From Micromonospora terminaliae (lineage in GTDB: Bacteria; Actinomycetota; Actinomycetes; Mycobacteriales; Micromonosporaceae), in the NCBI RefSeq assembly GCF_009671205.1, contig NZ_CP045309.1:1426001-1490000 (forward strand): a DNA stretch of 64,000 nt. Direction: 5' to 3'. Of the stretch, positions 13,086 through 63,934 are shown in pieces. The position numbers and the translations under genes are program-made. Each line of letters begins with the position of its first letter. The first letter of the stretch is position 1. The notes below the pieces were generated by a model. That model was given only the letters and a program-made list of their open reading frames with translations, ran no database searches and was not told the origin of the DNA.

Positions 13086-15206
<2,121 letters not shown>

Positions 15207-15208
15207 CC

Positions 15209-17515: not shown

Positions 17516-19245
17516 CCGAGTTCACCGTGTGGGCGCCCGCAGCCGCCCGGGTGCGGCTGCGGCTGCCCGGCGTCGCCGACCACGAGATGCGCTCCGGTGC
17601 GGGCGGCTGGTGGCGGGTCGAGGTGCCCGGCGCCGGAACGGGCACCGACTACGCCTTCCTGCTGGACGACGACGACCAGGCCCTGCCCGACCCCCGCTCG
17701 GCGTGGCAGCCGCAGGGCGTGCACGGGCCGAGCCGCCGCTACGACCACGCGGCGTTCGACTGGACCGACCAGGGCTGGACCGGCCGGCAGCTGCCCGGCA
17801 GCGTCCTCTACGAGCTGCACATCGGCACCTTCACCCCCGAGGGCACCTTCGACGCGGCGATCGGCCGTCTCGACCACCTGGTCGACCTCGGCGTCGACCT
17901 CGTCGAGCTGCTGCCGGTCAACGCCTTCAACGGCGAGCACAACTGGGGCTACGACGGCGTCTGCTGGTACGCGCCGCACGAACCCTACGGCGGGCCGGAC
18001 GGGCTCAAGCGCTTCGTCGACGCGGCGCACGCCAAGGGGCTGGGGGTGATCCTCGACGTCGTCTACAACCATTTCGGGCCCTCCGGGGCCTACGCGCCGC
18101 GCTTCGCGCCGTACCTCACCGAGCAGAGCAACACCTGGGGCCGCACCGTCAACCTGGACGGGCCGCACTCCGACGGGGTGCGCCGCTACATCGTCGACAG
18201 CGTGCTCATGTGGCTGCGCGACTACCACGTCGACGGGCTGCGGCTCGACGCCGTACACGCCATGCCGGACTCCCGGGCCACCCACCTCCTCGAGGAGGTG
18301 GCGACCGAGGTGGAGGCCCTGTCCACCCACCTGGGCCGGCCACTGTCGCTGATCGCCGAGAGCGACCTCAACGACCCGAAGCTGATCACCCCGCGGGAGG
18401 GCGGCGGCTACGGGCTGCACGCCCAGTGGAACGACGACGCCCACCACGCGCTGCACACCCTGCTCACCGGGGAACGGCAGGGCTACTACGGCGACTTCGG
18501 CTCCCTGGAGTGCCTCACCGAGGTGCTCACCGGCGCGTTCTTCCACGCCGGCACCTGGTCCAGCTTCCGCAACCGCAGCCACGGCCGGCCCGTCGACCGG
18601 CAGCGCACGCCGGGGCACCGCTTCGTGGCGTACCTGCAGAACCACGACCAGATCGGCAACCGGGCCACCGGCGACCGGATCTCCCAGACCCTCTCCGCCG
18701 GGCTGCTGCGCGTCGGCGCCACCCTCCTGATGACCGCGCCCTTCACGCCGATGCTGTTCATGGGGGAGGAGTGGGCGGCCAGCACGCCGTGGCAGTTCTT
18801 CACCAGCCACCCCGAGCCGGAGCTGGCCACCGCCGTGGCGGCCGGGCGGCGGCGGGAGTTCGCGGCGCACGGCTGGCCGCCGGGCGACGTGCCCGACCCG
18901 CAGGACCCGCAGACCTTCGTGCGGTCCCGGCTCGACTGGGCCGAGCTGGACAAGCCCGAGCACCGGGAGATGTACGACTTCTACCGGCGGCTCATCGCGC
19001 TGCGCAAGCGCCGCCCCGACCTCTCCGACCCCCGGCTCCACCAGGTCGACGTCCGCCACGGCGACCAGTTCCTGCTGATGCGGCGGGGCGGCACCCTCGT
19101 GGTGGCGAACCTGGCCGGCAAGCCGCAGCGGATCAACCTGCCCGGTGTGGTGCGCCGGGTGCTGCTCGCCACCTCCGAGGGCGTCACCGTGATGCGCGAC
19201 GGGATCGAGCTGCCACCGGAGTCCGCCGCCGTCGTGGCGCTTTGA
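17512..19245 (+). CDS. treZ: Maltooligosyltrehalose trehalohydrolase TreZ
   Basis: The 577-residue enzyme releases trehalose from the product of TreY. An N-terminal domain (EFTVWAPAAARVRLRLPG) precedes a GH13 barrel: VLYELHIGTFTPEGTF, VILDVVYNHFGPSG, VDGLRLDAVHAMPD (nucleophile Asp), LIAESDLNDP (acid Glu) and YLQNHDQIGNRATG (third Asp). FTPMLFMGEEWAASTPWQFF is typical of TreZ. Together with GlgX and TreY it completes trehalose formation from glycogen, which serves stress protection or carbon storage. It ends 3 bp before the convergent SARP gene, without a visible terminator. Confidence 0.96.
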   Translation: MTEFTVWAPAAARVRLRLPGVADHEMRSGAGGWWRVEVPGAGTGTDYAFLLDDDDQALPDPRSAWQPQGVHGPSRRYDHAAFDWTDQGWTGRQLPGSVLYELHIGTFTPEGTFDAAIGRLDHLVDLGVDLVELLPVNAFNGEHNWGYDGVCWYAPHEPYGGPDGLKRFVDAAHAKGLGVILDVVYNHFGPSGAYAPRFAPYLTEQSNTWGRTVNLDGPHSDGVRRYIVDSVLMWLRDYHVDGLRLDAVHAMPDSRATHLLEEVATEVEALSTHLGRPLSLIAESDLNDPKLITPREGGGYGLHAQWNDDAHHALHTLLTGERQGYYGDFGSLECLTEVLTGAFFHAGTWSSFRNRSHGRPVDRQRTPGHRFVAYLQNHDQIGNRATGDRISQTLSAGLLRVGATLLMTAPFTPMLFMGEEWAASTPWQFFTSHPEPELATAVAAGRRREFAAHGWPPGDVPDPQDPQTFVRSRLDWAELDKPEHREMYDFYRRLIALRKRRPDLSDPRLHQVDVRHGDQFLLMRRGGTLVVANLAGKPQRINLPGVVRRVLLATSEGVTVMRDGIELPPESAAVVAL

Positions 19246-53596: not shown

Positions 53597-54472
53597 ATGG
53601 GTGACATCCTCGTGGGCACCGCCTCCTGGACCGACCGGACCCTGCTCGACTCCGGCTGGTACCCGGCGAGCGCCGACACCCCGGAGAAGCGGCTCTCCTA
53701 CTACGCGCGGCAGTTCCCGCTGGTCGAGGTGGACGCCACCTACTACTCGCCGCCGGCCGAGCGGACCGCGCGGCTCTGGGCGGAACGCACCCCGCCCGGC
53801 TTCACCTTCAACGTCAAGGCGTTCAGCATGCTGACCGGGCATCCGACCCGGGTCTCGGCGCTCTACAAGGACCTGCGTCCGGACACGGACAAGAAGAACC
53901 TCTACCCGGACGACCTGCCGCCGCAGGCGTACGAGGAGGTCTGGAGCCGGTTCCTGTCCGCCCTGGACCCGCTGGTCGAGGCCGGCAAGCTGGGCGCCGT
54001 CCTGTTCCAGTTCCCGCCCTGGTTCACCATCCGGCGGGACAACAAGCAGTACCTCGTCGAGGTGGCCCGGCGGTGCGCGCCGCTGCGGCCGGTCTTCGAG
54101 TTCCGGCACGCCTCCTGGTTCGACGGCGACAACGCCGAGGAGACGCTGGGCTTCCTGCGCCAGCACGAGCTGCCGTTCGTGTGCGTGGACATGCCGCAGG
54201 GGCACAAATCGTCCGTACCCCCGGTGCTGGCGGCCACCGCGGACCTCGCGGTGGTCCGCTTCCACGGGCACAGCGACAAGTGGACCAGCAAGGACATCCA
54301 CGAGAAGTTCGGCTACGACTACTCGAAGCGGGAGCTGCGCGACTGGGCGCCGAAGCTGCGCGAGCTGGCCGGCGAGGCCGAGCAGACCCATGTGCTCATG
54401 AACAACTGCTATCGGGACTATGCGCAGCGGAATGGGCAGCAGCTACAGGCCCTTCTAGCTGGGCAAACGTAG
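53597..54472 (+). CDS. DUF72 protein; 3' end replaced by the integrated element
   Basis: This 291-residue TIM-barrel-like protein is of the DUF72 family: ILVGTASWTDRTLLDSGWYP, FPLVEVDATYYSPPAERTA, GFTFNVKAFSMLTGHPTRVS, VLFQFPPWFTIRRDN and VVRFHGHSDKWTSKDIHEKF. Function is unknown; a nuclease or sugar-related role has been proposed for the fold. From about 54,412 on, the gene is read from element DNA, which gives CYRDYAQRNGQQLQALLAGQT. The native end (CYRDYAQRNATTLAGLLDAG) is stranded at 63,869-63,934. The element's version uses TAT, AAT, CTA and CTT codons that are rare in the host, so it is foreign. The protein is kept almost whole. Confidence 0.9.
   Translation: MGDILVGTASWTDRTLLDSGWYPASADTPEKRLSYYARQFPLVEVDATYYSPPAERTARLWAERTPPGFTFNVKAFSMLTGHPTRVSALYKDLRPDTDKKNLYPDDLPPQAYEEVWSRFLSALDPLVEAGKLGAVLFQFPPWFTIRRDNKQYLVEVARRCAPLRPVFEFRHASWFDGDNAEETLGFLRQHELPFVCVDMPQGHKSSVPPVLAATADLAVVRFHGHSDKWTSKDIHEKFGYDYSKRELRDWAPKLRELAGEAEQTHVLMNNCYRDYAQRNGQQLQALLAGQT
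54402..54411. repeat. attL core
   Basis: ACAACTGCTA is shared with 63867-63876. To its right the two copies still match at about three of four bases over 30 bp, with changes at third codon positions, so the reading frame of the DUF72 gene is preserved on both sides. Confidence 0.8.
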
Positions 54473-54518
54473 CCGCAGCCTGCGCCGCGCCTTTGGTACA
54501 GCGGTGCTAGTGCCGATA
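54441..54518. repeat. Left integrase arm-site candidates
   Basis: Four short words occur here and again next to attR: AGCTACAG (54441-54448 and 63842-63849), GTAGCCG (54469-54475 and 63852-63858), TACAGCGGT (54497-54505 and 63845-63853) and GCTAGTGCCGATA (54506-54518 and 63785-63797). In the circular form they would lie on both sides of the attP core, the usual place of arm-type integrase sites. The last one sits 11 bp before the integrase start and may also control it. Confidence 0.55.
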
Positions 54519-54529
54519 GCTTGGCCCGC

Positions 54530-55441
54530 ATGGCACACGATGAATTCGCCGACCTGGGCGATTCCTGGGAGCTGGCGCTACGCGCCGACGGCTACTCCGA
54601 CAACACGATCACGTCGTACCGGCGGGCGCTGCGCAGCCTGGCCGCATGGCTGCCCCCCGACACCACCCCCGACCAGATCACCCGCGATCACATCCGGGGA
54701 TGGATCGTCGCCACCCGCAACGCCACCAGCAGCGGCACCGCCCGATCCTGGTTCGCAGGCGTCCGCCACTTCTGCCGCTTCCTGCTGGCCGAAGGGGAGG
54801 CCGCCACCGATCCCACCGACGGCATCCGGACGCCACCGCCCAACGCCCCTGTGACGCCTGTGCTGGACGAGGACGCCCTGCGGGCGCTGCTGGCCACCGC
54901 CACCGCCACCACGTTCCAGGATCGGCGCGACGCCGCGATCCTGTACCTGCTGATCGACGGCGGGCTGCGGCTGGCCGAGATCACCGCGCTGCGGGTAGAC
55001 GATGTGGACGTGCGCAGCCGCACCGTGACGATCACCGCCGGGAAGGGGTCGGGCCGATCGGGGGCGCGGCGGCGGGTCATCGCCGTCGGGGTGAAGGCGG
55101 CGCGGGCGCTAGATCGGTACCTGCGGGAACGGCGGCGGCACCCGTACGCCGAGCTACCCGCGCTGTGGCTGGGCGGCAGGGGGCGCGCCACCCTGACGGA
55201 CAGCGGCATCAAGGCCATGGTCCAGCGGCGCGCCGCGCAGGCAGGGATCGGCCACGTCCACCCGCACATGTTCCGCCACTCCTGGGCGGCGGCCTTCCAG
55301 GCAGCCGGGGGCAGCGACGGGGACCTGATGACGCTGGGCGGCTGGCGCAGCCGGACGATGCTGGACAGATACGGGGCGGCTACTGCTGCTGATCGGGCAC
55401 GCCGCGCCGCTTCCCGGCTGTCGCTCGGCGATCGGCTGTGA
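54530..55441 (+). CDS. int: Tyrosine recombinase (integrase)
   Basis: This protein has 303 residues. The N-terminal SAM-like core-binding domain (residues 8-95, WELALRADGYSDNTITSYRR) has no additional arm-binding domain of lambda type visible. The catalytic domain shows all conserved residues: Arg147 (GGLRLAEI), Lys172 (GKGSGRSGARRR), His246 and Arg249 (HPHMFRHSW), Trp272 (GGWRS) and nucleophile Tyr281 (MLDRYG). It should integrate and excise the element at the DUF72 site; it lies 118 bp inside attL and points inwards. ATG 54530 has no ribosome site, and TTG 54521 is an option. Leaderless translation is possible. Confidence 0.93.
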   Translation: MAHDEFADLGDSWELALRADGYSDNTITSYRRALRSLAAWLPPDTTPDQITRDHIRGWIVATRNATSSGTARSWFAGVRHFCRFLLAEGEAATDPTDGIRTPPPNAPVTPVLDEDALRALLATATATTFQDRRDAAILYLLIDGGLRLAEITALRVDDVDVRSRTVTITAGKGSGRSGARRRVIAVGVKAARALDRYLRERRRHPYAELPALWLGGRGRATLTDSGIKAMVQRRAAQAGIGHVHPHMFRHSWAAAFQAAGGSDGDLMTLGGWRSRTMLDRYGAATAADRARRAASRLSLGDRL

Positions 55442-55535
55442 CCGCTATAGCATCGCGGGCAGTAGGCGCGAGGGATGCCCCGACGTACGGAACCGTGATC
55501 CCCGCCTGTTGGCGAAATCCGACAGGGAGTGGATC

Positions 55536-55850
55536 ATGGCAGCGAAAGATCCCGACGTGCGCAGGATGGCGGGCCGCATAGGCGGCCACATGTCCTGGGC
55601 GAACACCCCCGATCGGGCGGCGCGTACCGCCCCCGGTCGTCAGGCAGCCCTCGATCGTTTCGAGCGCGAAATCGACCCCGACGGCACGATGGACCCCGTC
55701 GAGCGGGCGCGGCGGGCCGATTGCCTGCGCCGCGCCCACATGGCGCGGCTGTCCCTGAAGGCGGCGCAGGCGCGGAAGGCGGCAGCCGCTGGGCGGCAGC
55801 AGCACCCCCAGGGGCGCAGGGCGACGCCGCCGAAGGACGACGCTGCGTGA
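55536..55850 (+). CDS. Small element protein, basic C-terminus
   Basis: This protein has 104 residues from ATG 55536, with AGGGAG 6 bp upstream. The stretch RMAGRIGGHMSWANTPDRAA and FEREIDPDGTMDPVERARRA recurs in small proteins of actinobacterial mobile elements, as I recall, but their role is unknown. The C-terminus is Ala/Arg/Lys-rich and may bind nucleic acid. It is the first of four genes with overlapping ends (55536-56813). Confidence 0.7.
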   Translation: MAAKDPDVRRMAGRIGGHMSWANTPDRAARTAPGRQAALDRFEREIDPDGTMDPVERARRADCLRRAHMARLSLKAAQARKAAAAGRQQHPQGRRATPPKDDAA

Positions 55851-56122
55851 ACACCCAGGAGGCCGCCACCGCCGACACCCTGCGCGATGCCGCGTACCGG
55901 GTCGGCCGCGCCGTCAGGGTCGCCGCTGACGTGGTGGCCGCGCAGGCGGGCCGCAAACACCTGCCGTCGGATGTGCAGGCGTGGCAGGACCTGCGCGACG
56001 CATCCGGGCGGCTGTCGGCGCTGGTGGCGCAGTACGACCCCGGCGACATCGAGCCGCCTCCGCCTGGCCCGTCGGGTGGCGCGCCCCCTGCGGCCATCAG
56101 CCGGAAGCGGGTGATCGTGTGA
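55847..56122 (+). CDS. Small element protein, tandem paralogue A
   Basis: This protein has 91 residues from GTG 55847, which overlaps the previous stop as GTGA. Residues 12-60 are helical (LRDAAYRVGRAVRVAADVVA, WQDLRDASGRLSALVAQY). The next protein has the same pattern in its first 60 residues, so the two genes look like a duplication. A Pro-rich tail ends it. No function recognised. Confidence 0.65.
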   Translation: MNTQEAATADTLRDAAYRVGRAVRVAADVVAAQAGRKHLPSDVQAWQDLRDASGRLSALVAQYDPGDIEPPPPGPSGGAPPAAISRKRVIV

Positions 56123-56574
56123 CCGACGTACAGCCGCCAGGCGTGGACGAGGTGCGGAAGGCCGCCTACCGGGTGGCCGACGCTGTGCGGGCCGTCGAGG
56201 ACGCCCTGGCGTACACACCCGCCAACCAGGCGTCGTGGGACGACCTGCGGTGGTCGGCCAAGCGCCTGTCGTCGCTGCTGCGGCTGGCACCCGAGCGGCT
56301 CGACGACGCGGAGCCGGTGCGGCTGGCCGACAGCGATCGGCCACGGGTGCGGCGCGCTGCGCCCGCTGTGCTGCCCGACGGCGGGGCGCACGGCAACTAC
56401 CGGCGGGCCGATCGGGAGCGGCTGCTGGCCGCAGGCTGGCGGCGGGTGGACATCCTGGGCGACTCGCGGTGCTGGGTGCCGCCCGGCTGCGACGGCGGCG
56501 TGCGATCCGAGCGGCGCAGCCTGGCGGCGGCGCTGGCGGCGCTGGACGCCGAACAGCAGGAGCTGCCGGTATGA
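56119..56574 (+). CDS. Small element protein, tandem paralogue B with extra domain
   Basis: This protein has 151 residues from GTG 56119, 4-bp overlap with the previous gene. Residues 10-60 (VRKAAYRVADAVRAVEDALA, WDDLRWSAKRLSSLLRL) align with the whole helical part of the preceding protein. The second half, GNYRRADRERLLAAGWRRVD and SRCWVPPGCDGGVRSERR, is additional, with a Cys pair. The function is unknown. Confidence 0.65.
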   Translation: MTDVQPPGVDEVRKAAYRVADAVRAVEDALAYTPANQASWDDLRWSAKRLSSLLRLAPERLDDAEPVRLADSDRPRVRRAAPAVLPDGGAHGNYRRADRERLLAAGWRRVDILGDSRCWVPPGCDGGVRSERRSLAAALAALDAEQQELPV

Positions 56575-56813
56575 GCGACGACGGCCAGGAGTCGCGCGCC
56601 GAGAGGTTTCAGCGGCGGGCCGAACAGCGGGCCGAACGGCGTCAGCGACCGGCGGTGGTGGACCCCCGAGATCGCGCGGCGGTGGACCGGCTGATGGTGC
56701 ACGCCATCCTCGGCACCTGGCGGGCGCTAGAGGCGCTGTATGGCCACGAACCGCGGTTCTGGGACGTGGTGCGGCAGGCGCTGGCCCGCCACGACCGATC
56801 GGGGGCGGGGTGA
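56571..56813 (+). CDS. Small charged element protein
   Basis: This 80-residue protein starts at ATG 56571, overlapping the previous stop as ATGA. The first 35 residues are very Arg/Gln/Glu-rich (ERFQRRAEQRAERRQRPAVV), and the rest is a helical segment LMVHAILGTWRALEALYG. It is the last of the operon and is followed by a hairpin. No function recognised. Confidence 0.6.
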   Translation: MSDDGQESRAERFQRRAEQRAERRQRPAVVDPRDRAAVDRLMVHAILGTWRALEALYGHEPRFWDVVRQALARHDRSGAG

Positions 56814-56822
56814 GACGTGAAC

Positions 56823-56850
56823 GCCCGCCCGGTCACCACTCCGGGCGGGC
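56823..56850. terminator. Terminator after the small-gene operon
   Basis: A perfect 10-bp stem (56823-56832 with 56841-56850) with an 8-base loop starts 10 bp beyond the operon's last stop. Confidence 0.75.
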
Positions 56851-56902
56851 ATCCAGCAGATCACCAACGTCACCAGCAGCAGCCACACACCACGAGGCAC
56901 AA

Positions 56903-56925
56903 ACCGCAGGCACTACCGCAGGCAC
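56903..56925. repeat. Tandem direct repeat upstream of the replication ATPase
   Basis: ACCGCAGGCAC occurs twice with a 12-bp period (56903-56913 and 56915-56925), in a stretch of repeated CAG/CAC words. It is iteron-like in placement, but two copies are few. Confidence 0.45.
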
Positions 56926-56953
56926 CTCCCAGCGTACCGGGGTCGCCTGCGGG

Positions 56954-56999
56954 ACCAGGGAACCCGACGGTGCGCGCGCAGGATGGGGGGTTCCCTGGT
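56954..56999. repeat. 12-bp inverted repeat around the start of the replication ATPase gene
   Basis: ACCAGGGAACCC (56954-56965) is the exact reverse complement of GGGTTCCCTGGT (56988-56999), with 22 bp between. The right arm lies inside the first codons. It could be an operator for autoregulation or part of an origin. Confidence 0.6.
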
Positions 57000-58344
57000 G
57001 GGCTACGTGGACGATGAAGACCGGCGGTACGCCGACGAGCTGGACTGGGGGGTTGATCAGAACGCCGGCGTCGTCGTGATCGAGCCGCCGACGGTGGTGG
57101 TGAACGGCACCCGTGTGCTGGGGTACGCACCCGACACCGTGGCACCGCCCCCGCCCGACCTGGAGGCCGAACAGGCGGCGCGCAGCCTGGCCGCCGACAC
57201 CCGGTACGAGGTGCAGCGGATCAAGGCGCGGCAGGCGGCGCAGGCGATCATCCGGGCCGAGGGACGCCCGCCTATGCCTGCGCTGCGCAGCCTGGCCGAC
57301 GCCCTGGCCGAACCCGACGACCCCGTGCTGTACCGGATCGACGGGCTGTGGCCGCGACACGGGCGGGTGGTGCTGGTGGCGCAGGCGAAGGCCGGGAAGA
57401 CGACGGTGCGCGACAACCTAGTGCGATCACTGGTCGACGCCGATCCCTTCCTAGATCACTTCCAGGTCATCGAGCCTGTGCGCGACGGCTGCGTGACGAT
57501 CATCGACGCTGAGTTGTACCCAGCAACCGGGCGGCGGTGGCTGCGCGACCAGCGGATCAGACACCCGAAGCTGATCAACGTCGTGTGGCTGAAGGGCCAC
57601 CGGGGCGGCGTCGCCGCCTTCGACCTGCTGGACGCCGAACGGCGGGCCGAGTGGGCGGCGGTGCTGCGCGCCGCAGGCACCCGCGTGCTGATCATCGACT
57701 GCCTGGGGCCGCTGCTGGCCGCAGCCGGGGCGGACGAGAACAGCGGGCTGGACGTGGGGCGGTGGCTGGGCGCGCTGGACGCCCTGCTGGACGAGGCCGG
57801 GATCACCGAGGCCGTCGTGATTCACCACATGGGGCACGCAGCCGATCGGGCGCGCGGGGCGTCGCGGCTGCGTGACTGGCCCGACGCCGAGTGGCGGCTG
57901 ATCAAGGGGCGCGACGCCGATCAGGACGACCCCACCGCCCCCCGCTACCTGGCGGCGCAGGGGCGCGACGTGGCGCAGCCCGAGGCGGCGCTGGCGTACG
58001 ACCACGACGGGCGGCGGCTGGCGCTGGTGGGCGGCACCAGGGCGCAGTCGCGGGCGACGAAGGCCGATCAGGACGCCGAGGCATGGCTGCCGACACTGGC
58101 CGAAGTAGTGCGCCGTCACCCAGGGCTGTCAGCGTCCGAAATCGACGAGCGCGCCGCTTCGGTCGGGATCGGCCGCAATGAATGGCGCAGGGTCCGGAAC
58201 CTGGCAGTGCGCCGTCAGATGATCTGCCAGCACAAAGCCGGGACCACCAGGCAAAACCACTACCTGGCCAGCGAGTGCGCCGAGCACGCCGAAGCGCGCC
58301 ACCGCGCACCCGGCGCACTGCCAGGCGGGCTGGCGGGGGTGTAG
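56983..58344 (+). CDS. RecA-fold replication ATPase (RepA/AAA_25-like) with C-terminal winged helix
   Basis: This protein has 453 residues. An N-terminal part of about 115 residues precedes a RecA-like ATPase: Walker A AQAKAGKTT (residues 133-141), VTIIDAELYP, Walker B RVLIIDCLGPLL (Asp239), and VVIHHMGHAADRARGASRLR as the sensor-like motif. Such proteins are hexameric helicases for plasmid or phage replication. The last 90 residues form a helix-turn-helix (EVVRRHPGLSASEIDERAAS, WRRVRNLAVRRQ). ATG 56983 is used; GTG 56998 has a G-rich site ahead and is an alternative. It would replicate the excised circle. No primase or separate initiator is seen. Confidence 0.8.
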   Translation: MGGSLVGYVDDEDRRYADELDWGVDQNAGVVVIEPPTVVVNGTRVLGYAPDTVAPPPPDLEAEQAARSLAADTRYEVQRIKARQAAQAIIRAEGRPPMPALRSLADALAEPDDPVLYRIDGLWPRHGRVVLVAQAKAGKTTVRDNLVRSLVDADPFLDHFQVIEPVRDGCVTIIDAELYPATGRRWLRDQRIRHPKLINVVWLKGHRGGVAAFDLLDAERRAEWAAVLRAAGTRVLIIDCLGPLLAAAGADENSGLDVGRWLGALDALLDEAGITEAVVIHHMGHAADRARGASRLRDWPDAEWRLIKGRDADQDDPTAPRYLAAQGRDVAQPEAALAYDHDGRRLALVGGTRAQSRATKADQDAEAWLPTLAEVVRRHPGLSASEIDERAASVGIGRNEWRRVRNLAVRRQMICQHKAGTTRQNHYLASECAEHAEARHRAPGALPGGLAGV

Positions 58345-58392
58345 TGCGCCAGTGCGCCGGGGGGTTTATAACCCCGGCGCGGTGGCGCACTA
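58342..58392. terminator. Nested hairpin terminator after the replication ATPase
   Basis: Outer arms TAGTGCGCC/GGCGCACTA (58342-58350, 58384-58392) enclose inner arms GCGCCGGGG/CCCCGGCGC (58354-58362, 58372-58380). It includes the stop codon itself. Confidence 0.75.
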
Positions 58393-58485
58393 CCCACCGC
58401 CCCGCCCCCACACCTGGGGTGCAGGGGTTAGGCCAGCCCACAGGTGATCTAGGAAATATCCACGACCATCGAAATGGAAATGATC

Positions 58486-58668
58486 ATGAACATCGCAGCA
58501 CTAGACGGCCTCACCCTCCAAGGAGGGTGCGATCACTGCGACGCAGTGCAAACGATCAACGCACACCGACACGGGCCGAACATCCACGCGATCACCGTCC
58601 ACCACGACGACCGATGCCCCTGGCTGCGCCGCCAGCGCCGCCGCGCCAAGCGGCAGCGCCGCCGATGA
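58486..58668 (+). CDS. Small zinc-ribbon-like protein
   Basis: This protein has 60 residues; ATG 58486 (or 58474) is the start. CDHCDAVQTINAHRHG has a CX2C pair, and HHDDRCPWLRRQ supplies His and another Cys, which would bind one zinc. The last 12 residues are almost all Arg/Lys/Gln, which fits nucleic-acid binding. Similar small CxxC proteins occur in actinobacterial phages and integrative elements, by recollection only. Confidence 0.65.
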   Translation: MNIAALDGLTLQGGCDHCDAVQTINAHRHGPNIHAITVHHDDRCPWLRRQRRRAKRQRRR

Positions 58669-58779
58669 TCACGTTTTTTAAGTCCAGCGGCCAGATCAGG
58701 CCACGGATCGCCTGGGCGCTTTATCTGCCGCCGTCTATGTGTGTGCGCACGCCCCATGCCTGTCGATGAAAGGATGATC

Positions 58780-59226
58780 ATGCCGAGTTCAACGATCACT
58801 GTGCGGCTGCCCGATGAGGTGCGGCAGCGGCTGGACGAGGAGGCGCGGCGTCTGCGGGTGCCGCCGGGCACCCTGGCGGCCCGTCTGGTGGCCGAGGGCG
58901 TCGATGATCCGCCCCCGGCGTTGGCTGGCGACGCCGAGCCGCCGGTGTCGGCCTTGGAGGCGTCGGTGTTGGCGTCGTTCGCGGGCACCAGCGGCCCGCT
59001 GGTGGGCGTTCAGCGCGAGCTGGCACTCACCCTTGCCCGGCAGGCGGAGCAGGGGGGCAGCGGGGCGGCTGGGGCGGCGGCGCGGCTGCGGGATGTGCTG
59101 GCGCAGGCGCACGCGCACACACCGCCGGATGTGGACGCCCTGGCGGCGTTGCTGGCGACGCCTGTGGTGACGGAGTGCCCGCAGTGCGGATTCGCGTGTG
59201 GTGCGGGGGTGGCGTTCGGTGTCTGA
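58780..59226 (+). CDS. Ribbon-helix-helix protein with C-terminal Cys knuckle
   Basis: This protein has 148 residues from ATG 58780, with AAAGG 7 bp upstream. The N-terminus STITVRLPDEVRQRLDEEAR is a CopG/Arc-type ribbon-helix-helix and could bind operator DNA as a dimer. A linker and a helical part (VGVQRELALTLARQAEQ) follow, and the C-terminus ECPQCGFACGAG has three Cys of a knuckle. It overlaps the next gene by 8 bp. It is a candidate transcription or excision controller of the element. Confidence 0.7.
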   Translation: MPSSTITVRLPDEVRQRLDEEARRLRVPPGTLAARLVAEGVDDPPPALAGDAEPPVSALEASVLASFAGTSGPLVGVQRELALTLARQAEQGGSGAAGAAARLRDVLAQAHAHTPPDVDALAALLATPVVTECPQCGFACGAGVAFGV

Positions 59227-59458
59227 TCAGGGCGCGGGCGGCCAGGTGCCGGATGAGGCGACGGTGGTGTCGCTGCTGCTGGCCTTTCTACGCGGCGACA
59301 TGGAAGGCGCCCAGGTGATCATGGCGGATACGTCGCTGCCGCTGCTGCTGGCCGCTGCGTTGGGCTGGTTCAACGCGCTGGGGATCAAGGAGTTCGGGGC
59401 GGATGCCTGGGCGGATCAGTTGCAGCGCTTCCTCGCCGATGCGGCCCGACGGGGATAG
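59219..59458 (+). CDS. Small hydrophobic-core element protein
   Basis: This protein has 79 residues from GTG 59219. The middle, SLPLLLAAALGWFNALG, is hydrophobic, and AWADQLQRFLADAARRG forms an amphipathic helix. It may be a small membrane-associated or all-helical protein. There is no known homologue by eye. Confidence 0.55.
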   Translation: MSDQGAGGQVPDEATVVSLLLAFLRGDMEGAQVIMADTSLPLLLAAALGWFNALGIKEFGADAWADQLQRFLADAARRG

Positions 59459-59771
59459 CTTGATCTCGTTCGGTTCCTCCGGGACTACCGGGGGTGATCG
59501 GGCAGCCCAAGGGACGGGGCTTGTACCTGGTCGGGGCGGCGGCTGATCACCGCCCCCCGACACCCCAGGGCACCAGTGCTAGGGGCACCGCCACAGGCAG
59601 ATGACCGAAGCGGCCCTCGTTGAGCACCGACGCCGCAGGCACCCGACAGATGCGCGGGGCGGGCTGCGGCAGGCGCGGGCACCACAGGTGTGGGTGCACT
59701 CCGGCCGGTCGGGGGCTCCGGGTAGCCGCCAGCACATCCCTAGATCACGACGACACAGGGGTGTGTTACCG
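59459..59771. other. Spacer before the major capsid gene
   Basis: This 313-bp stretch has no gene I can support. An imperfect GC hairpin lies at about 59531-59560 (TCGGGGCG with CCCCCCGA around a TGATCA) and may end the upstream operon. The capsid gene's frame is open back to 59601, but there is no convincing ribosome site before ATG 59772. A late promoter is expected here. Confidence 0.4.
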
Positions 59772-61187
59772 ATGCCAACCATTGACGATCTTGTGGCTGC
59801 GCTGGAACTCGAGCGCAGTGATCTTGTACGGAAGCGCGACGGGGTGATGGAGGCCGCCAAGGCGCTGCTGGAGGCGTCGCAGCGGGCGGGGCGGGCCAAC
59901 CTGGCCCCCGATGAGGACCGCGAGCTGACGGTGTTGTTCACCCAGCGCGACAGCCTGCGCGGGCAGATCGAGCGGGTAGACGCCCGGCTGGCGCACGCAC
60001 GCGAGGCGCAGGCCGACGAGGGGCGGGTGACGCGGGCGCAGGAGCAGCGGGTGCCCACCGGGCGCAGCGGCGGCGCGCCCGTCGACGCCCAGGGTGAGGC
60101 GCAGGACGGCGCGCGGTGGGTGCGCCGCAACGACGGGCGGCCCGCTGCGGTGGAGCGCGGCCAGCGATTCGCCGACCACGCGGTGGTCGCGGATCACGCC
60201 CGGCTGCGGGCGGCGTCCGATCAGCACATCGTCGGCACCCACGGCAGCCTCGGCCAGTACGTCCGCGCCCTGTCCACCACCTCCGGCTCGGCGCTGGTGC
60301 CTACCGTGTGGGCGGGCGACATCATCGACCGGGCGCGCAACGCCGCCCGCGTCCTTCAGGCTGGCGCGACGATCGTGCCCATGGACGCCAAGACCGTCCA
60401 GATCGGGCGGCTGACGACCGACCCGGTAGCGGCGTTCCGCACGGAGGGCTCGCTGATCACCGCCACCGACCCGGCGTTCGACAACGTCACCCTCGACGCC
60501 AAGACCATGTCGGCGCTGGTGGTGATGAACATGGAGTTCGTCCAGGACGCCCCCAACGCCGACGAGGTGGTGTCCAACGCGATCGCGCGGGCCATGGCGA
60601 CGGAGCTGGACAAGCAGGCCCTGTTCGGCGGTGTGACGACCGGCGGTGAGGTCGGCGCTACCGGCTTCAACACCACCTTCCCGACGCCGCCGAACCCGCG
60701 CGGTGTGCTGGCCACCCTGCTGGCCGTCGCGTCCTCGTCGGTGCTGGGATCGGGCGCGAACGGCACCGCGCTGACGGCGACGACCCCGTGGAACGAAGTG
60801 CTGGACACGATCTTCACCGTGCGCCAGAACAACGAGGAGCCCAACGCGATCCTGTGGAACGCGAAGATGGCGCAGAAGCTGGCGAAGACGTACGACACCA
60901 CCGGGCAGCCGCTGACGATGGCACCGGATGTGGCTGGCCTGGAGCGGTACGTCACCAACCAGATCCCGTCGTTCACGCAGGGCACCGCCACCGGCACCGC
61001 CACGGATGTGTTCGTGGGTGACTGGACGCAGCTCCTGATCGGGCAGCGCCTCGACGTCACCATCCAAGTCCTGACGGAGCGCTACGCCGAGTTCGGCCAG
61101 GTCGGCATCGTCGCGCACTGGCGCGGTGATGTGGCGCTGGCCCGCCCGCGTGCCTTCGCCGTCTACCGTTACCTGATCGGGGCGTGA
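59772..61187 (+). CDS. Major capsid protein, HK97 fold
   Basis: This protein has 471 residues. Residues 1-85 are a coiled-coil (LVAALELERSDLVRKRDGVM, DRELTVLFTQRDSLRGQIER) like the delta domain that acts as built-in scaffold. A polar linker follows to about residue 155. The HK97-fold part starts at SGSALVPTVWAGDIIDRARN, with VLQAGATIVPMDAKTVQIGR, KTMSALVVMNMEFVQDAP, IARAMATELDKQALFG and ERYAEFGQVGIVAHWRGDVA as typical strands. Length and motifs fit the Phage_capsid family. Mature capsids of this group usually lose the delta domain by a protease, and no protease is encoded nearby. It is the only recognisable virion gene in the element. Confidence 0.93.
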   Translation: MPTIDDLVAALELERSDLVRKRDGVMEAAKALLEASQRAGRANLAPDEDRELTVLFTQRDSLRGQIERVDARLAHAREAQADEGRVTRAQEQRVPTGRSGGAPVDAQGEAQDGARWVRRNDGRPAAVERGQRFADHAVVADHARLRAASDQHIVGTHGSLGQYVRALSTTSGSALVPTVWAGDIIDRARNAARVLQAGATIVPMDAKTVQIGRLTTDPVAAFRTEGSLITATDPAFDNVTLDAKTMSALVVMNMEFVQDAPNADEVVSNAIARAMATELDKQALFGGVTTGGEVGATGFNTTFPTPPNPRGVLATLLAVASSSVLGSGANGTALTATTPWNEVLDTIFTVRQNNEEPNAILWNAKMAQKLAKTYDTTGQPLTMAPDVAGLERYVTNQIPSFTQGTATGTATDVFVGDWTQLLIGQRLDVTIQVLTERYAEFGQVGIVAHWRGDVALARPRAFAVYRYLIGA

Positions 61188-61192
61188 TCATC

Positions 61193-61537
61193 ATGGCTAC
61201 GAACGACAAGGCCGGGCAGAAGGCCGTCGGCGGCCCTTCCCGCGACTGGGCGGATGGGCCAGCCGAGGTCATCGAGGACAAGCGCGGCGACGAGCTGCGG
61301 AAGATGGCCCAGGACCTGCACGACGCCACCACGCGGCGGCGGCGTGGTGGCGTCGTGGTCGCCCCCGCCCACGTCTACGCGGTGCACCCCGACACCGGCG
61401 ACGAGGTGGTGTTCGTGCCGGGTGAGGCCCTGCCCGATTGGGCGGTGGAGGCCGCCGTCGCCGGCGTCGGCGGCCAGTGGGTGCGCGGCGACGATGGGCT
61501 GCTGCGGGTGTACATGGGCGGCAGGAAGCCGTCGTGA
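61193..61537 (+). CDS. Small protein downstream of the capsid gene
   Basis: This protein has 114 residues from ATG 61193, 5 bp after the capsid stop. The N-terminal half is charged; the C-terminal half (HVYAVHPDTGDEVVFVPGEA, LPDWAVEAAVAG) is a small beta-rich motif of the kind seen in short phage proteins next to capsid genes. It could be a capsid decoration or head-completion protein. This is inference from position and motif. Confidence 0.65.
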   Translation: MATNDKAGQKAVGGPSRDWADGPAEVIEDKRGDELRKMAQDLHDATTRRRRGGVVVAPAHVYAVHPDTGDEVVFVPGEALPDWAVEAAVAGVGGQWVRGDDGLLRVYMGGRKPS

Positions 61538-61791
61538 TCAACCCGTGGCGGCTGGTCGACAAGATCCGCACCAACGCCAAGACCGGGCTCGCCCAGGGCA
61601 GCGGCCTGGGGCGCACCGAGCGGGTGGCAGGGGCAGGGCGGTGGCGGCCCCGCCGCGACCCCGGCGGCGTCGTAGTCGACGGGGTGGTGTGGCCGCTGGA
61701 GGGTGAACCCCCGGTGGCGCAGGGCGGCAACTGGTGGGGCGACAGCGGCAGCGGCGGCGGCCCGCGCACCGCACCCGAAACCACCAAGTAG
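61534..61791 (+). CDS. Small protein, 85 residues, at the end of the capsid operon
   Basis: It starts at GTG 61534, which overlaps the previous stop as GTGA. The first 30 residues are basic (MINPWRLVDKIRTNAKTGL), the middle contains GGVVVDGVVWPLEGEPPVAQ, and the tail is Gly/Ser-rich. No family is recognised. It is the last plus-strand gene of the element and lies before a bidirectional hairpin. Confidence 0.6.
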   Translation: MINPWRLVDKIRTNAKTGLAQGSGLGRTERVAGAGRWRPRRDPGGVVVDGVVWPLEGEPPVAQGGNWWGDSGSGGGPRTAPETTK

Positions 61792-61876
61792 ACGGGCGCA
61801 GCCAGGCACCCCCCCCCGTCGCTACTTCCTCGGGGCGGCGGGGGGGTTGCCTTCCCTCCTGGGGCTGCGCGCAGGG

Positions 61877-61915
61877 CTGCGGCCCGCCCCTATCTGCATG
61901 GGGGGCGGGCCGCAG
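61877..61915. terminator. Bidirectional terminator between converging operons
   Basis: A perfect 14-bp stem (61877-61890 with 61902-61915) with an 11-base loop lies between the last plus-strand gene and the last minus-strand gene. Confidence 0.8.
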
Positions 61916-61931
61916 CTCGTTGTACGGGGGG

Positions 61932-62051
61932 TCAGAATCCGATCATGCGCAGCACCTCGGCCAGCCCCAGGACGGCCAGGGTGGCGATCACGGCCCGGCC
62001 CAGCAGGGCAGCCAGATCAGCCAACCGCCGACGCAGGCAGGCGCGGTTCAT
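61932..62051 (-). CDS. 39-residue single-span membrane peptide
   Basis: ATG 62051 overlaps the stop of the preceding gene (ATGA). The peptide has a basic head (MNRACLRRR) and one hydrophobic span (AALLGRAVIATLAVLGLAEV), so it should insert into the membrane once. A holin-like, toxin-like or regulatory role is possible but unproven. It is the last gene of the minus-strand operon. Confidence 0.55.
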   Translation of the reverse strand: MNRACLRRRLADLAALLGRAVIATLAVLGLAEVLRMIGF

Positions 62052-62359
62052 GATCCATCACCGCCCAGCAGATCATCAGGGATCGTGTCGGGCGGGCCGT
62101 CGGTCGTCCACTCCTCCTCGTCGTAGCCCAGCCGCTGCACCAGGCTGCGGCACATATCAGCCGCCCGATCGGCGGTGCGCTGGTGCACCAAATCGTCGGC
62201 GGTGCGCCCGTTGGCCGTCAGCAGATCAGCCGCCCGCAGGTACTCGTCGCGGGCCGTCAGCAGCGCATCGATGATCAGCTCCACCTCGTCGCCGGACATC
62301 GCGATCAGCCCTGGCCGCCGGGGCGGCGGGGTGGCGTCGCCCCAGTCGCGCTCAAACAT
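62048..62359 (-). CDS. Small acidic element protein
   Basis: This protein has 103 residues from ATG 62359 with GGAGG 7 bp upstream. The sequence LIAMSGDEVELIIDALLTAR, AADMCRSLVQRLGYDEEEW and an acidic tail indicate a mostly helical, acidic protein. No family is recognised. It overlaps its neighbours on both sides. Confidence 0.65.
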   Translation of the reverse strand: MFERDWGDATPPPRRPGLIAMSGDEVELIIDALLTARDEYLRAADLLTANGRTADDLVHQRTADRAADMCRSLVQRLGYDEEEWTTDGPPDTIPDDLLGGDGS

Positions 62360-62681
62360 CACCCGGCCTCCGCCCCTGCTCGTTGGCGGTGGCGCTGCGG
62401 TACAGGCTGCCCCCGATCCGGCGCTGGTTGATCGGGTGGCGCGGGCGGCGCGGCGGCGGGTAGCCGATCGGATCGGCGCTGTCGAACATGAACCAGGCCA
62501 GGGCATCCCGCAGCGCTGGCAGGTCGCGGCCCTGCGCCTGCGGCCACCCGTAGTAGTTCAGGCACGCGGCCACAGCGCGCACCAGCCCATCCGTCAGCCG
62601 GGGCAGATCATCGGGGGCGGGGCGGGGCACCGGGAAGGCACGGGGTGTCGGCCCGACCTGCGGTGGCATATCGTGATCCAT
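62352..62681 (-). CDS. Small element protein, 109 residues
   Basis: ATG 62681 follows AAGGAGG at a good distance. The protein is Pro/Arg-rich at both ends, with a helical middle LVRAVAACLNYYGWPQAQGR and ALRDALAWFMFDSADPIGYP. No family recognised. It is 77 bp downstream of the CPxCG protein gene. Confidence 0.65.
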   Translation of the reverse strand: MDHDMPPQVGPTPRAFPVPRPAPDDLPRLTDGLVRAVAACLNYYGWPQAQGRDLPALRDALAWFMFDSADPIGYPPPRRPRHPINQRRIGGSLYRSATANEQGRRPGDV

Positions 62682-62758
62682 TGGGTCGCCTCCTTCGTAG
62701 GCGATCAAGGGCGTTCGGCTGGTCTTCGCAGGGCAGCCGGACGCCCGCCTTGTTGGGG

Positions 62759-62968
62759 CTACGACGCCGCCTGTGGGCGTCGTGGTGCCGGGGCGGCGGG
62801 TGCCCCCCGGTCGCATCGCACGACGTGCGCATCCGGGGTGCCAGCACCCTGCACGTCGAACCACTCGTGATCTTCGAGCAGATCACCGCAGGCGGGGCAC
62901 GGCCGGTCGGCCAGCAGCCGCGCCACCGCCCCCCGCAGGCGATCGTTCAAGATCAGGCGTTGGGCCAT
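62759..62968 (-). CDS. Small CPxCG zinc-finger-like protein
   Basis: This 69-residue protein starts at ATG 62968 with AAGGGGG upstream. LLADRPCPACGDLLEDHEWF has CPxCG and nearby His/Glu, and one more Cys follows in HVVRCDRG, which is enough for a small zinc site. The tail is Ala/Pro/Arg-rich. Role unknown. Confidence 0.65.
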   Translation of the reverse strand: MAQRLILNDRLRGAVARLLADRPCPACGDLLEDHEWFDVQGAGTPDAHVVRCDRGAPAAPAPRRPQAAS

Positions 62969-62994
62969 CTCGATCAGCCCCCTTCATGATCAGC

Positions 62995-63020
62995 GGGGGT
63001 GCCCCTGGGCGGGCACCCCC
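62995..63020. terminator. Hairpin after the winged-helix protein gene
   Basis: A perfect 10-bp stem (62995-63004 with 63011-63020) with a 6-base loop lies 12 bp beyond that gene's stop on the minus strand. It may partly separate this gene from the four that follow. Confidence 0.7.
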
Positions 63021-63032
63021 TGCGCTGGGTGA

Positions 63033-63596
63033 TCAGTTGGCGGCAGCGGCCTTGCGGGTGCGCCGCGCGGCGGGCTTCGGGGCAGCGGCCAGCCGGTAGC
63101 GGCGCGGCTTGTCGCTGGTCTGCGCGATCTTGTCGGCGGCGGCCAGGCGGGCGCAGCAGTCGCGCACACCCAGCGGCTTACGTCCCTCGGGGGTGATCGC
63201 CCGGCTGATCGCGTACGGGCTGAACTCCTCGTTCGGGTGCGCCGCCAGGTAGGCCAGCACCATCTCGTCCTGGTTCAGCCGGGGCGTCGGCGCGGGCTTG
63301 GCGTCGGCGGGCTGTGCGGGCTGCTGCGGCTGCGGCTGCGCCGGGGCGGCCTTGCCCTTGCCCTTCGCGGCCTTCGGGGCGGCTGCGGGCTGCTGGGCGG
63401 GCTGCGCGGCGGCATCCTGGGCGGCGGCCTTGGTGCTGCGGCGGCGCGGCGCAGGCGCGGCCTTCGCCTCGCGGGCGGCCAGCTCGTCGGCCATCCGCTG
63501 CCCGTCGGCGATCACATCGGACTCGTCCAGATCACGGGGCAGCCCCTTGGGGGCGGTGTCGGCGGCGGCGGTGCGGGTGCGGGTGGTGGTGGCCAT
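63033..63596 (-). CDS. Winged-helix-like protein with Ala/Pro/Lys-rich linker
   Basis: This protein has 187 residues from ATG 63596, with AGGGAG upstream. Residues 50-105 are low complexity (Ala, Gln, Pro, Lys repeats such as APKAAKGKGKAAPAQPQ). The C-terminal part, EMVLAYLAAHPNEEFSPYAI and VRDCCARLAAADKIAQTSD, then RRYRLAA, reads as a winged helix. The end is basic (ARRTRKAAAAN). Next to attR and divergent from the rest of the operon, it is a candidate regulator, excision factor or DNA-packing protein. Confidence 0.65.
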   Translation of the reverse strand: MATTTRTRTAAADTAPKGLPRDLDESDVIADGQRMADELAAREAKAAPAPRRRSTKAAAQDAAAQPAQQPAAAPKAAKGKGKAAPAQPQPQQPAQPADAKPAPTPRLNQDEMVLAYLAAHPNEEFSPYAISRAITPEGRKPLGVRDCCARLAAADKIAQTSDKPRRYRLAAAPKPAARRTRKAAAAN

Positions 63597-63784
63597 TGTG
63601 ATCACTCCCTGGTCGGGCGGGCTGTGCTGCTGCCCTGCTAGGTGCCCCGGAGCGGGGCAAGGCGAGCTTCGGCGTGTCCGATTGCGACCAGGAAGCGAGT
63701 GACGCCCGGACTCGCGCCATCTGAATTACTGCGGCATAGCCCGCGCCGCGCGACGTGCCGCTACGCTGCGTAGTGCCCCGCAGG

Positions 63785-63858
63785 GCTAGTGCCGATAAAT
63801 GGCGCGGCCTCGGTAGACGCCCCAGCGCTGAAATGCCTGGTAGCTACAGCGGTAGCCG
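63785..63858. repeat. Right integrase arm-site candidates
   Basis: GCTAGTGCCGATA at 63785-63797, AGCTACAG at 63842-63849, TACAGCGGT at 63845-63853 and GTAGCCG at 63852-63858 are the partners of the words near attL. The rest of 63597-63866 holds no gene I can support. TAGTGCC-type words recur here several times, for example near 63,638 and 63,769. Confidence 0.55.
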
Positions 63859-63866
63859 GGGCATAC

Positions 63867-63876
63867 ACAACTGCTA
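63867..63876. repeat. attR core
   Basis: ACAACTGCTA, identical to the attL core at 54402-54411. To its right runs the native 3' end of the DUF72 gene. Confidence 0.8.
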
Positions 63877-63934
63877 CCGCGACTACGCCCAGCGCAACGC
63901 GACCACCCTGGCGGGCCTGCTCGACGCCGGCTGA
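63869..63934 (+). pseudogene. Displaced native 3' end of the DUF72 gene
   Basis: Twenty-one codons and a stop, reading NCYRDYAQRNATTLAGLLDA then G, in host-like codons. They continue exactly where the intact part of DUF72 reads NNCYRDYAQRN. It is no longer translated as part of a gene. Sequence to the right, up to 64,000, shows no gene start. Confidence 0.85.

Follow-up and report, generated by a model that had tools for sequence, protein, structure and literature searches.

A small capsid-encoding island in Micromonospora and its actinomycete relatives, most likely phage satellites

Phage satellites with a capsid gene of their own are already on record in several forms. In the Staphylococcus aureus pathogenicity island (SaPI) SaPIbov5, the capsid homologue Ccm forms only the pentamers in a T=4 shell whose hexamers consist of the helper's capsid protein, and both proteins lose their delta domains (PMC8569155). 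Capsid-forming phage-inducible chromosomal islands (cf-PICIs) make the whole head themselves, and bring a portal and terminase (PMC10690885). The closest account that we found is a survey of Mycobacterium prophages, in which a candidate phage-inducible chromosomal island (PICI) is defined by an integrase and a major capsid protein (MCP) gene (PMC10654092). Here we describe an island of 9465 bp (9.46 kb), inserted in the 3' end of a DUF72 gene in a Micromonospora chromosome (NZ_CP045309.1, 1426001-1490000; this whole stretch of 64,000 nucleotides is the window, and coordinates are window positions). It is most likely an integrated phage satellite with a PICI-like lifestyle, which encodes a head protein but relies on a helper for portal, terminase and tail.

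The window island is a complete, bounded element rather than a fragment of a larger prophage. Its ends carry an imperfect direct repeat of 36 nt, with 81% identity between the copies at 54397..54432 (attL, in the DUF72 gene 3' end) and 63862..63897 (attR); 29 positions agree in this best 36-nt match between the ends, whereas no more than 24 agreed when one end was shuffled 100 times. Joining the flanks in silico leaves the DUF72 gene end uninterrupted, and among 31 genomes searched the joined 326-nt sequence occurs intact, as an empty site, in the congeners G009 (92% identity) and G017 (82%), both over 1-326, with G018 matching at 86% over 10-306 only. As in phage satellites and PICIs, a specific attachment site is paired with an integrase, here a tyrosine integrase of 303 aa (54530..55441, plus strand; PF00589 1.5e-23, phrog_1 4e-41). 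In size, the 9.5 kb of this island and the 7.6-10.0 kb of its sister islands depart from the PICI norm of around 15 kb. An AAA_25 ATPase of 453 aa (56983..58344, plus strand; RecA-fold, RepA-like; PF13481 3e-18, phrog_906 polymerase/primase 2.8e-5) is the probable replication protein. A preliminary description had presented the locus as a bounded insert of about 9.5 kb, with an integrase, a RecA-fold ATPase, an intact 471-residue MCP gene and about ten small genes with tight overlaps; all of this stands apart from the gene number, which is exceeded by the 17 called genes that make up 85% of the insert. In composition, GATC occurs at 12.09/kb in 54436-63861 versus 5.35/kb in the host part (7.98 in its highest 9.4-kb segment), and CTAG at 1.27/kb versus 0.07/kb, a foreign-DNA signature that the sister islands lack.

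The MCP (59772..61187, plus strand, 471 aa) is of the HK97 type. PF05065 matches it over profile positions 1-279 of 280 (2e-33), TIGR01554 matches at 6.7e-35, and the best Foldseek match of its predicted structure is HK97 prohead I (5e-7; TM-scores are low), the best 50 of 78 matches at E<=0.001 all being phage or gene-transfer-agent capsids. A helical N-terminal domain (residues ~1-92), modelled with high confidence as two long helices (4-38 and 46-92), precedes a conserved core that starts at ~116. Across 22 homologues, mean pairwise identity is 69% over 116-471 versus 19-24% in the first 110 residues, and 93-151 residues precede a conserved W/F-V/I-R motif. Such a variable N-terminus joined to a conserved core is the pattern expected of a delta domain, hence the alignment and model fit an HK97 MCP with a delta-type N-terminal scaffold domain. 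Searched with tblastn, six of 50,697 phage records matched the MCP, at 26-35% identity, none of them over 80% of the query and none from an actinophage; 17 of 72,556 plasmid records matched, 16 being from C. difficile. A large protein search returned 418 homologues among 8000 scored candidates, the best 120 of which include proteins from Micromonospora, Nocardioides, Terrabacter, Streptosporangium, Actinoplanes and other genera. The gene is rare at E<=1e-20, being found in 3/160 genomes of the genus, 2/298 of the order and 1/394 of the class (the window's own), and the congener Micromonospora parastrephiae (NZ_JAEVHM010000056.1) carries an MCP of the same family.

No other virion gene was recognised in the window island. 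PHROGs and Pfam scans of 17 of its proteins, with a 39-aa open reading frame (ORF) at 61932..62051 outside the scan, gave no match at E<=1 to portal, terminase, protease, tail or lysis families, apart from a weak match of the protein p12 to a head-tail-connector PHROG (E=0.02), as the preliminary description had already stated of these functions. The same scans recognised no repressor; helix-turn-helix and excisionase-like genes are present in sister islands. NCBIfam and PADLOC, each applied to 10 of the island's proteins, added nothing further, with no PADLOC match at all. Hidden portal or terminase genes were rejected as far as profiles reach: when two portal and two large-terminase families were searched in six frames against 12 genomes or records (the locus L129 lying outside all of these searches), PF04860 matched in none, PF05133 and phrog_9 in one each, solely the control L020, and phrog_2 in seven, none of its 12 listed places being on or near any island. 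With the same PHROG library, this control, from Mycolicibacterium iranicum, yielded a terminase (6.3e-71), portal (1.9e-100), scaffold (5.2e-8) and MCP (2.2e-42). Of the cf-PICI gene set, which comprises an own MCP, protease, portal, connectors, terminases and HNH gene, the MCP alone was recognised, and its presence also departs from the rule that Gram-positive PICIs have no phage structural genes, a rule that SaPIbov5 breaks too. The gene content agrees with that of a Ccm-type island, in which a capsid homologue of HK97 fold has a delta domain while small terminase (TerS), portal and large terminase (TerL) genes are absent, p9 being at most a conceivable TerS. To assign that role to p9 (58780..59226, plus strand, 148 aa) is a guess. 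Its N-terminus is possibly a ribbon-helix-helix (RHH_5 E=0.015, below the Pfam cut-off); its weak similarity to the protein of L013:12481-12852 was equalled by 1/2000 shuffles; that protein has no terminase or phage match, and p9 itself was its own sole match in a large protein database search.

The same design recurs across actinomycete genomes. The MCP family was followed through 14 loci (the window, L106, L107, L108, L009-L014, L026, L027, L002 and L129), with MCP matches at E<=2.1e-60 in L106, L107, L108, L009-L014, L026 and L027, and with the integrase and ATPase of L129 named by eye. Outside this set are L028 (9.6e-44) and L029 (2.2e-30), which are more distant, and L016, which matches only in part, although the family cut is not clean, as tblastn best-segment identity is 34% for L015, on the same contig as L108, versus 36% for L028. 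Eight of the loci, from several genera, are repeat-bounded islands of 7.6-10.0 kb with one intact family MCP each: the window island (9465 bp), L106 (7628), L108 (10,020), L009 (9050), L010 (8296), L012 (8383), L013 (8925) and L014 (8296). Five occupy tRNA genes (Val, Ser, Ser, Leu, Lys) and three the 3' ends of other genes; the L009 repeat is just 15 bp and, a second 15-bp repeat being present, was picked for its position at a ychF-like gene end beside the integrase. These eight islands share the MCP without a recognised portal or terminase, which bears out the view that the window island is not a truncated piece of a larger prophage. Terminal repeats, as in circular contigs, were found in neither the first 104 loci nor L129.

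A scan of 82 of the 92 called ORFs of L106, L108, L009, L010, L012, L013, L014 and L026 agrees with this picture. Pfam gave 29 families at E<=0.001, the best 25 of which consist of 12 integrases, eight MCPs, helix-turn-helix genes, replication genes, an S78 protease, a tape measure protein and an HNH gene, with no portal or terminase among them, the other four having E above 1e-4; the PHROG results are the best 25 of 69 families. Next to its MCP, L013 encodes an S78 prohead protease (PF04586 1.6e-18), the only S78 among the best 25 Pfam families, and L014 has one HNH gene among the Pfam matches listed. In 10/10 host genomes PF05065 occurs once, always within the island, hence a resident prophage of this kind is not the source of the MCP gene.

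Individual relatives carry further genes. In L026, whose integrase is very close to that of the window (8.9e-126), a 576-aa short tape measure protein (L026:6710-8440; PF20155 1.7e-32) follows MCP-p12-p13 and is the only tail gene in 9.1 kb; the length of a borrowed tail might be set by this protein. The M. parastrephiae island, L108, encodes a HerA-like (DUF87) ATPase and a DUF2637 protein at 14729-17596, as in conjugative elements or defence loci. In another congener, L107:9149-11029 holds MCP-p12 and a small third gene beside a metH-like gene, with no integrase called nearby, which suggests a remnant or domesticated cassette.

Two small genes accompany the MCP, p12 directly 3' of it (61184..61537, plus strand, 117 aa) and then p13 (61534..61791, plus strand, 85 aa). 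A p12 profile built from four islands was run on 25,991 six-frame segments of the loci, five duplicates being left out; at E<=1.1e-6 it matched in 10 distinct places, all of them directly 3' of a family MCP and six of them not in the profile, with no other match up to E=1 in the loci searched. Hence p12 is present in 10/14 loci, and missing in L014, L108, L027 and L002. A p13 profile from three islands found further matches in L027 (5.2e-9) and L106 (4e-4), giving five loci in total. For p12, phage records gave no match up to E=10, a sequence search of solved structures gave none, and a large protein database gave eight proteins, the named ones from Micromonospora; its structural model is weak (mean pLDDT 61.8). 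Overlaps of a few bases link the MCP, p12 and p13, and ~300 bp without a called gene precede the MCP, so the three genes may form a single transcription unit. The gene upstream of the MCP, p10 (59219..59458, plus strand, 79 aa), can be aligned by eye with L129:6575-6835, and a profile of these two sequences found its own members and L026 at E=0.67. As a conserved gene, p10 was rejected: four sister upstream genes score like shuffles (361, 621, 884 and 817 of 1000 reach the score), and the small upstream gene of L106 is marginal (43/1000).

How a satellite of this kind would make its particle can be read in more than one way. We tentatively place first, at a little under an even chance, the reading that the island MCP builds the entire small head and the helper supplies the rest. 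Infection by a helper phage would lead to excision and replication of the island. With its N-terminal delta-like helices as scaffold, the MCP would then assemble a whole small shell around the helper's portal, with p12 and p13 fitting this shell to helper parts, and the helper's protease, terminase and tail completing the particle. With one genome per head, islands of 7.6-10 kb would lie near T=2.3-3, with wide overlapping intervals, in the size model of Luque et al., which gives T~2.33 for 8.14 kb, T~2.49 for 8.94 kb and T=3 for 11.78 kb (PMC7762592). The prohead protease beside the MCP in L013 leans towards a real shell made by this protein.

Several points weigh against a self-built shell. 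Firstly, no helper, induction, circle or particle was seen. Secondly, the two portal families searched revealed no helper prophage with a portal in the window's host genome, so a helper would come from outside or have a portal of another family. Thirdly, the core of the MCP model is weak (mean pLDDT 65.5, pTM 0.50, much of 287-413 below 50), hence no argument can be made from packing. Fourthly, Ccm of SaPIbov5, which includes a delta domain and is 24% identical to the capsid protein of the helper, is confined to pentamers (PMC8569155), while deletion of the EcCICFT073 capsid gene left transfer of that island unaffected (PMC6092414). Fifthly, the L107 cassette has no called integrase beside it. 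Of the earlier proposal of an own shell with a borrowed portal, terminase and tail, the borrowing satellite is retained as the likeliest reading, whereas the own shell is unproven, as a Ccm-like protein may fill pentamers only.

Indeed, the gene set of the window island would fit equally well a protein that co-assembles with the helper's capsid protein in pentamers, shrinks the head to a size that suits the island and excludes the helper genome, all other parts being the helper's. SaPIbov5 is the precedent, as Ccm, in the pentamers beside hexamers of helper protein, is the sole SaPI protein needed, with no TerS (PMC8569155); PmCI172 likewise has an MCP homologue and yields small heads, of 37-39 nm (PMC6092414). 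However, such a protein would not account readily for the protease of L013, nor for MCP cores that are strongly conserved across genera although the helpers must differ. The MCP without portal or terminase resembles SaPIbov5, but the L013 protease puts the self-built shell ahead of co-assembly, which we regard as unlikely, if a serious contender.

It is improbable that the islands are phages after gene loss, in which the MCP was kept by chance or without a role in transfer. L107 retains just MCP-p12-p13, the EcCICFT073 capsid gene was deletable without effect (PMC6092414), and by eye the neighbours of the MCP in L028 (36% identity) and L029 (31%) resemble terminase, protease and portal genes; yet eight bounded islands in several genera are alike in small size and intact MCP, the homologues are full-length with a conserved core, and the window island is 85% coding. 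Least probable is a protein that poisons helper heads or forms a nanocompartment in an unpacked island, since, although PICI capsid genes can block helpers (PMC8569155) and the L107 cassette persists without an integrase, 10 window-island proteins have no PADLOC match, the best 50 of 78 Foldseek matches are phage or gene-transfer-agent capsids, and the integrase and replication genes point to mobility. The self-built shell can be carried further, to an actinomycete satellite lineage with a capsid absent from sequenced phages, the smallest tailed-phage-type heads (<T=4, perhaps <T=3), a borrowed portal, and p12 and p13 as dedicated adaptors of the shell to a foreign portal and terminase, but this is doubtful as a whole.

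In the window island, all genes from the integrase to p13 are on the plus strand, including p2 (55536..55850, 104 aa; phrog_2842, unknown function, 8.9e-7), p3 (55847..56122, 91 aa), whose start overlaps the preceding gene and which has no family at E<0.1, p4 (56119..56574, 151 aa; no family) and p5 (56571..56813, 80 aa; no meaningful family), both from the gene caller, and p8 (58474..58668, 64 aa), an ORF with no convincing family. On the minus strand are the 39-aa ORF call, p14 (62048..62362, 104 aa; no family at E<0.1), p15 (62352..62687, 111 aa; no family), p16 (62759..62968, 69 aa), a possible zinc ribbon with a CPACG motif (PF21957 at E=0.28 only), and p17 (63033..63605, 190 aa), an Ala/Lys-rich possible regulator (phrog_2440 transcriptional regulator, E=0.017).

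If the satellite reading is correct, capsid-gene satellites extend to many kinds of soil actinomycete, in which their gene set is the shortest among those compared. Nature would then provide, in these islands, a test of whether tailed-phage shells below T=4 are real, and of how a shell fits the portal of another phage, for which p12 and p13 are small, concrete adaptor candidates. Where an actinomycete genome has an integrase and a capsid gene by themselves, a decayed prophage would not be the only explanation; in one survey such sequences are counted as intact prophages (PMC10023795).

Satellites with a capsid gene have precedents in SaPIbov5 (with Ccm), PmCI172, EcCICFT073 and the Mycobacterium candidate PICIs, and the preliminary suggestion of an undescribed type of satellite is not supported as to kind (PMC8569155, PMC6092414, PMC10654092). 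The cos-type SaPIs SaPIbov5 and SaPIbov4 are alike in being integrated, helper-dependent islands with an HK97-fold capsid homologue, an N-terminal delta domain and no TerS of their own (PMC8569155), whereas the present islands have actinomycete hosts, another size and the MCP-p12-p13 cassette; Ccm has been shown in pentamers, and the likeness is one of description, not sequence. EcCICFT073 and PmCI172 also have a capsid homologue in an island, EcCICFT073 with a head decoration gene as well, but they belong to Gammaproteobacteria, and the capsid gene of EcCICFT073 is dispensable for transfer (PMC6092414). The Mycobacterium candidates, including phiRv1 and phiRv2, are actinomycete islands defined by an integrase and MCP, although some have terminase or scaffold genes, and they too are likened to the window island by description (PMC10654092). 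The cf-PICIs and the Streptomyces satellites MulchRoom and MiniFlayer share an MCP of their own, but also have portal, terminases and either scaffold or protease, and depend on a helper for tails and little else, if anything (PMC10690885). A possible parallel in another phylum is found in the pCD630-like plasmids of C. difficile (L119), of ~7.9 kb, which carry an MCP, a small gene, an HNH gene and a helicase with no other virion gene annotated, but which are not integrated and have an MCP only ~25% identical over 64%. A literature search, mostly of non-subscription papers, returned no description of the actinomycete island lineage, its MCP or the p12/p13 cassette. Hence this comparison suggests that the actinomycete islands, with a lineage and an MCP-p12-p13 cassette for which we found no earlier description, are a variant of the capsid-gene satellites already known in kind.

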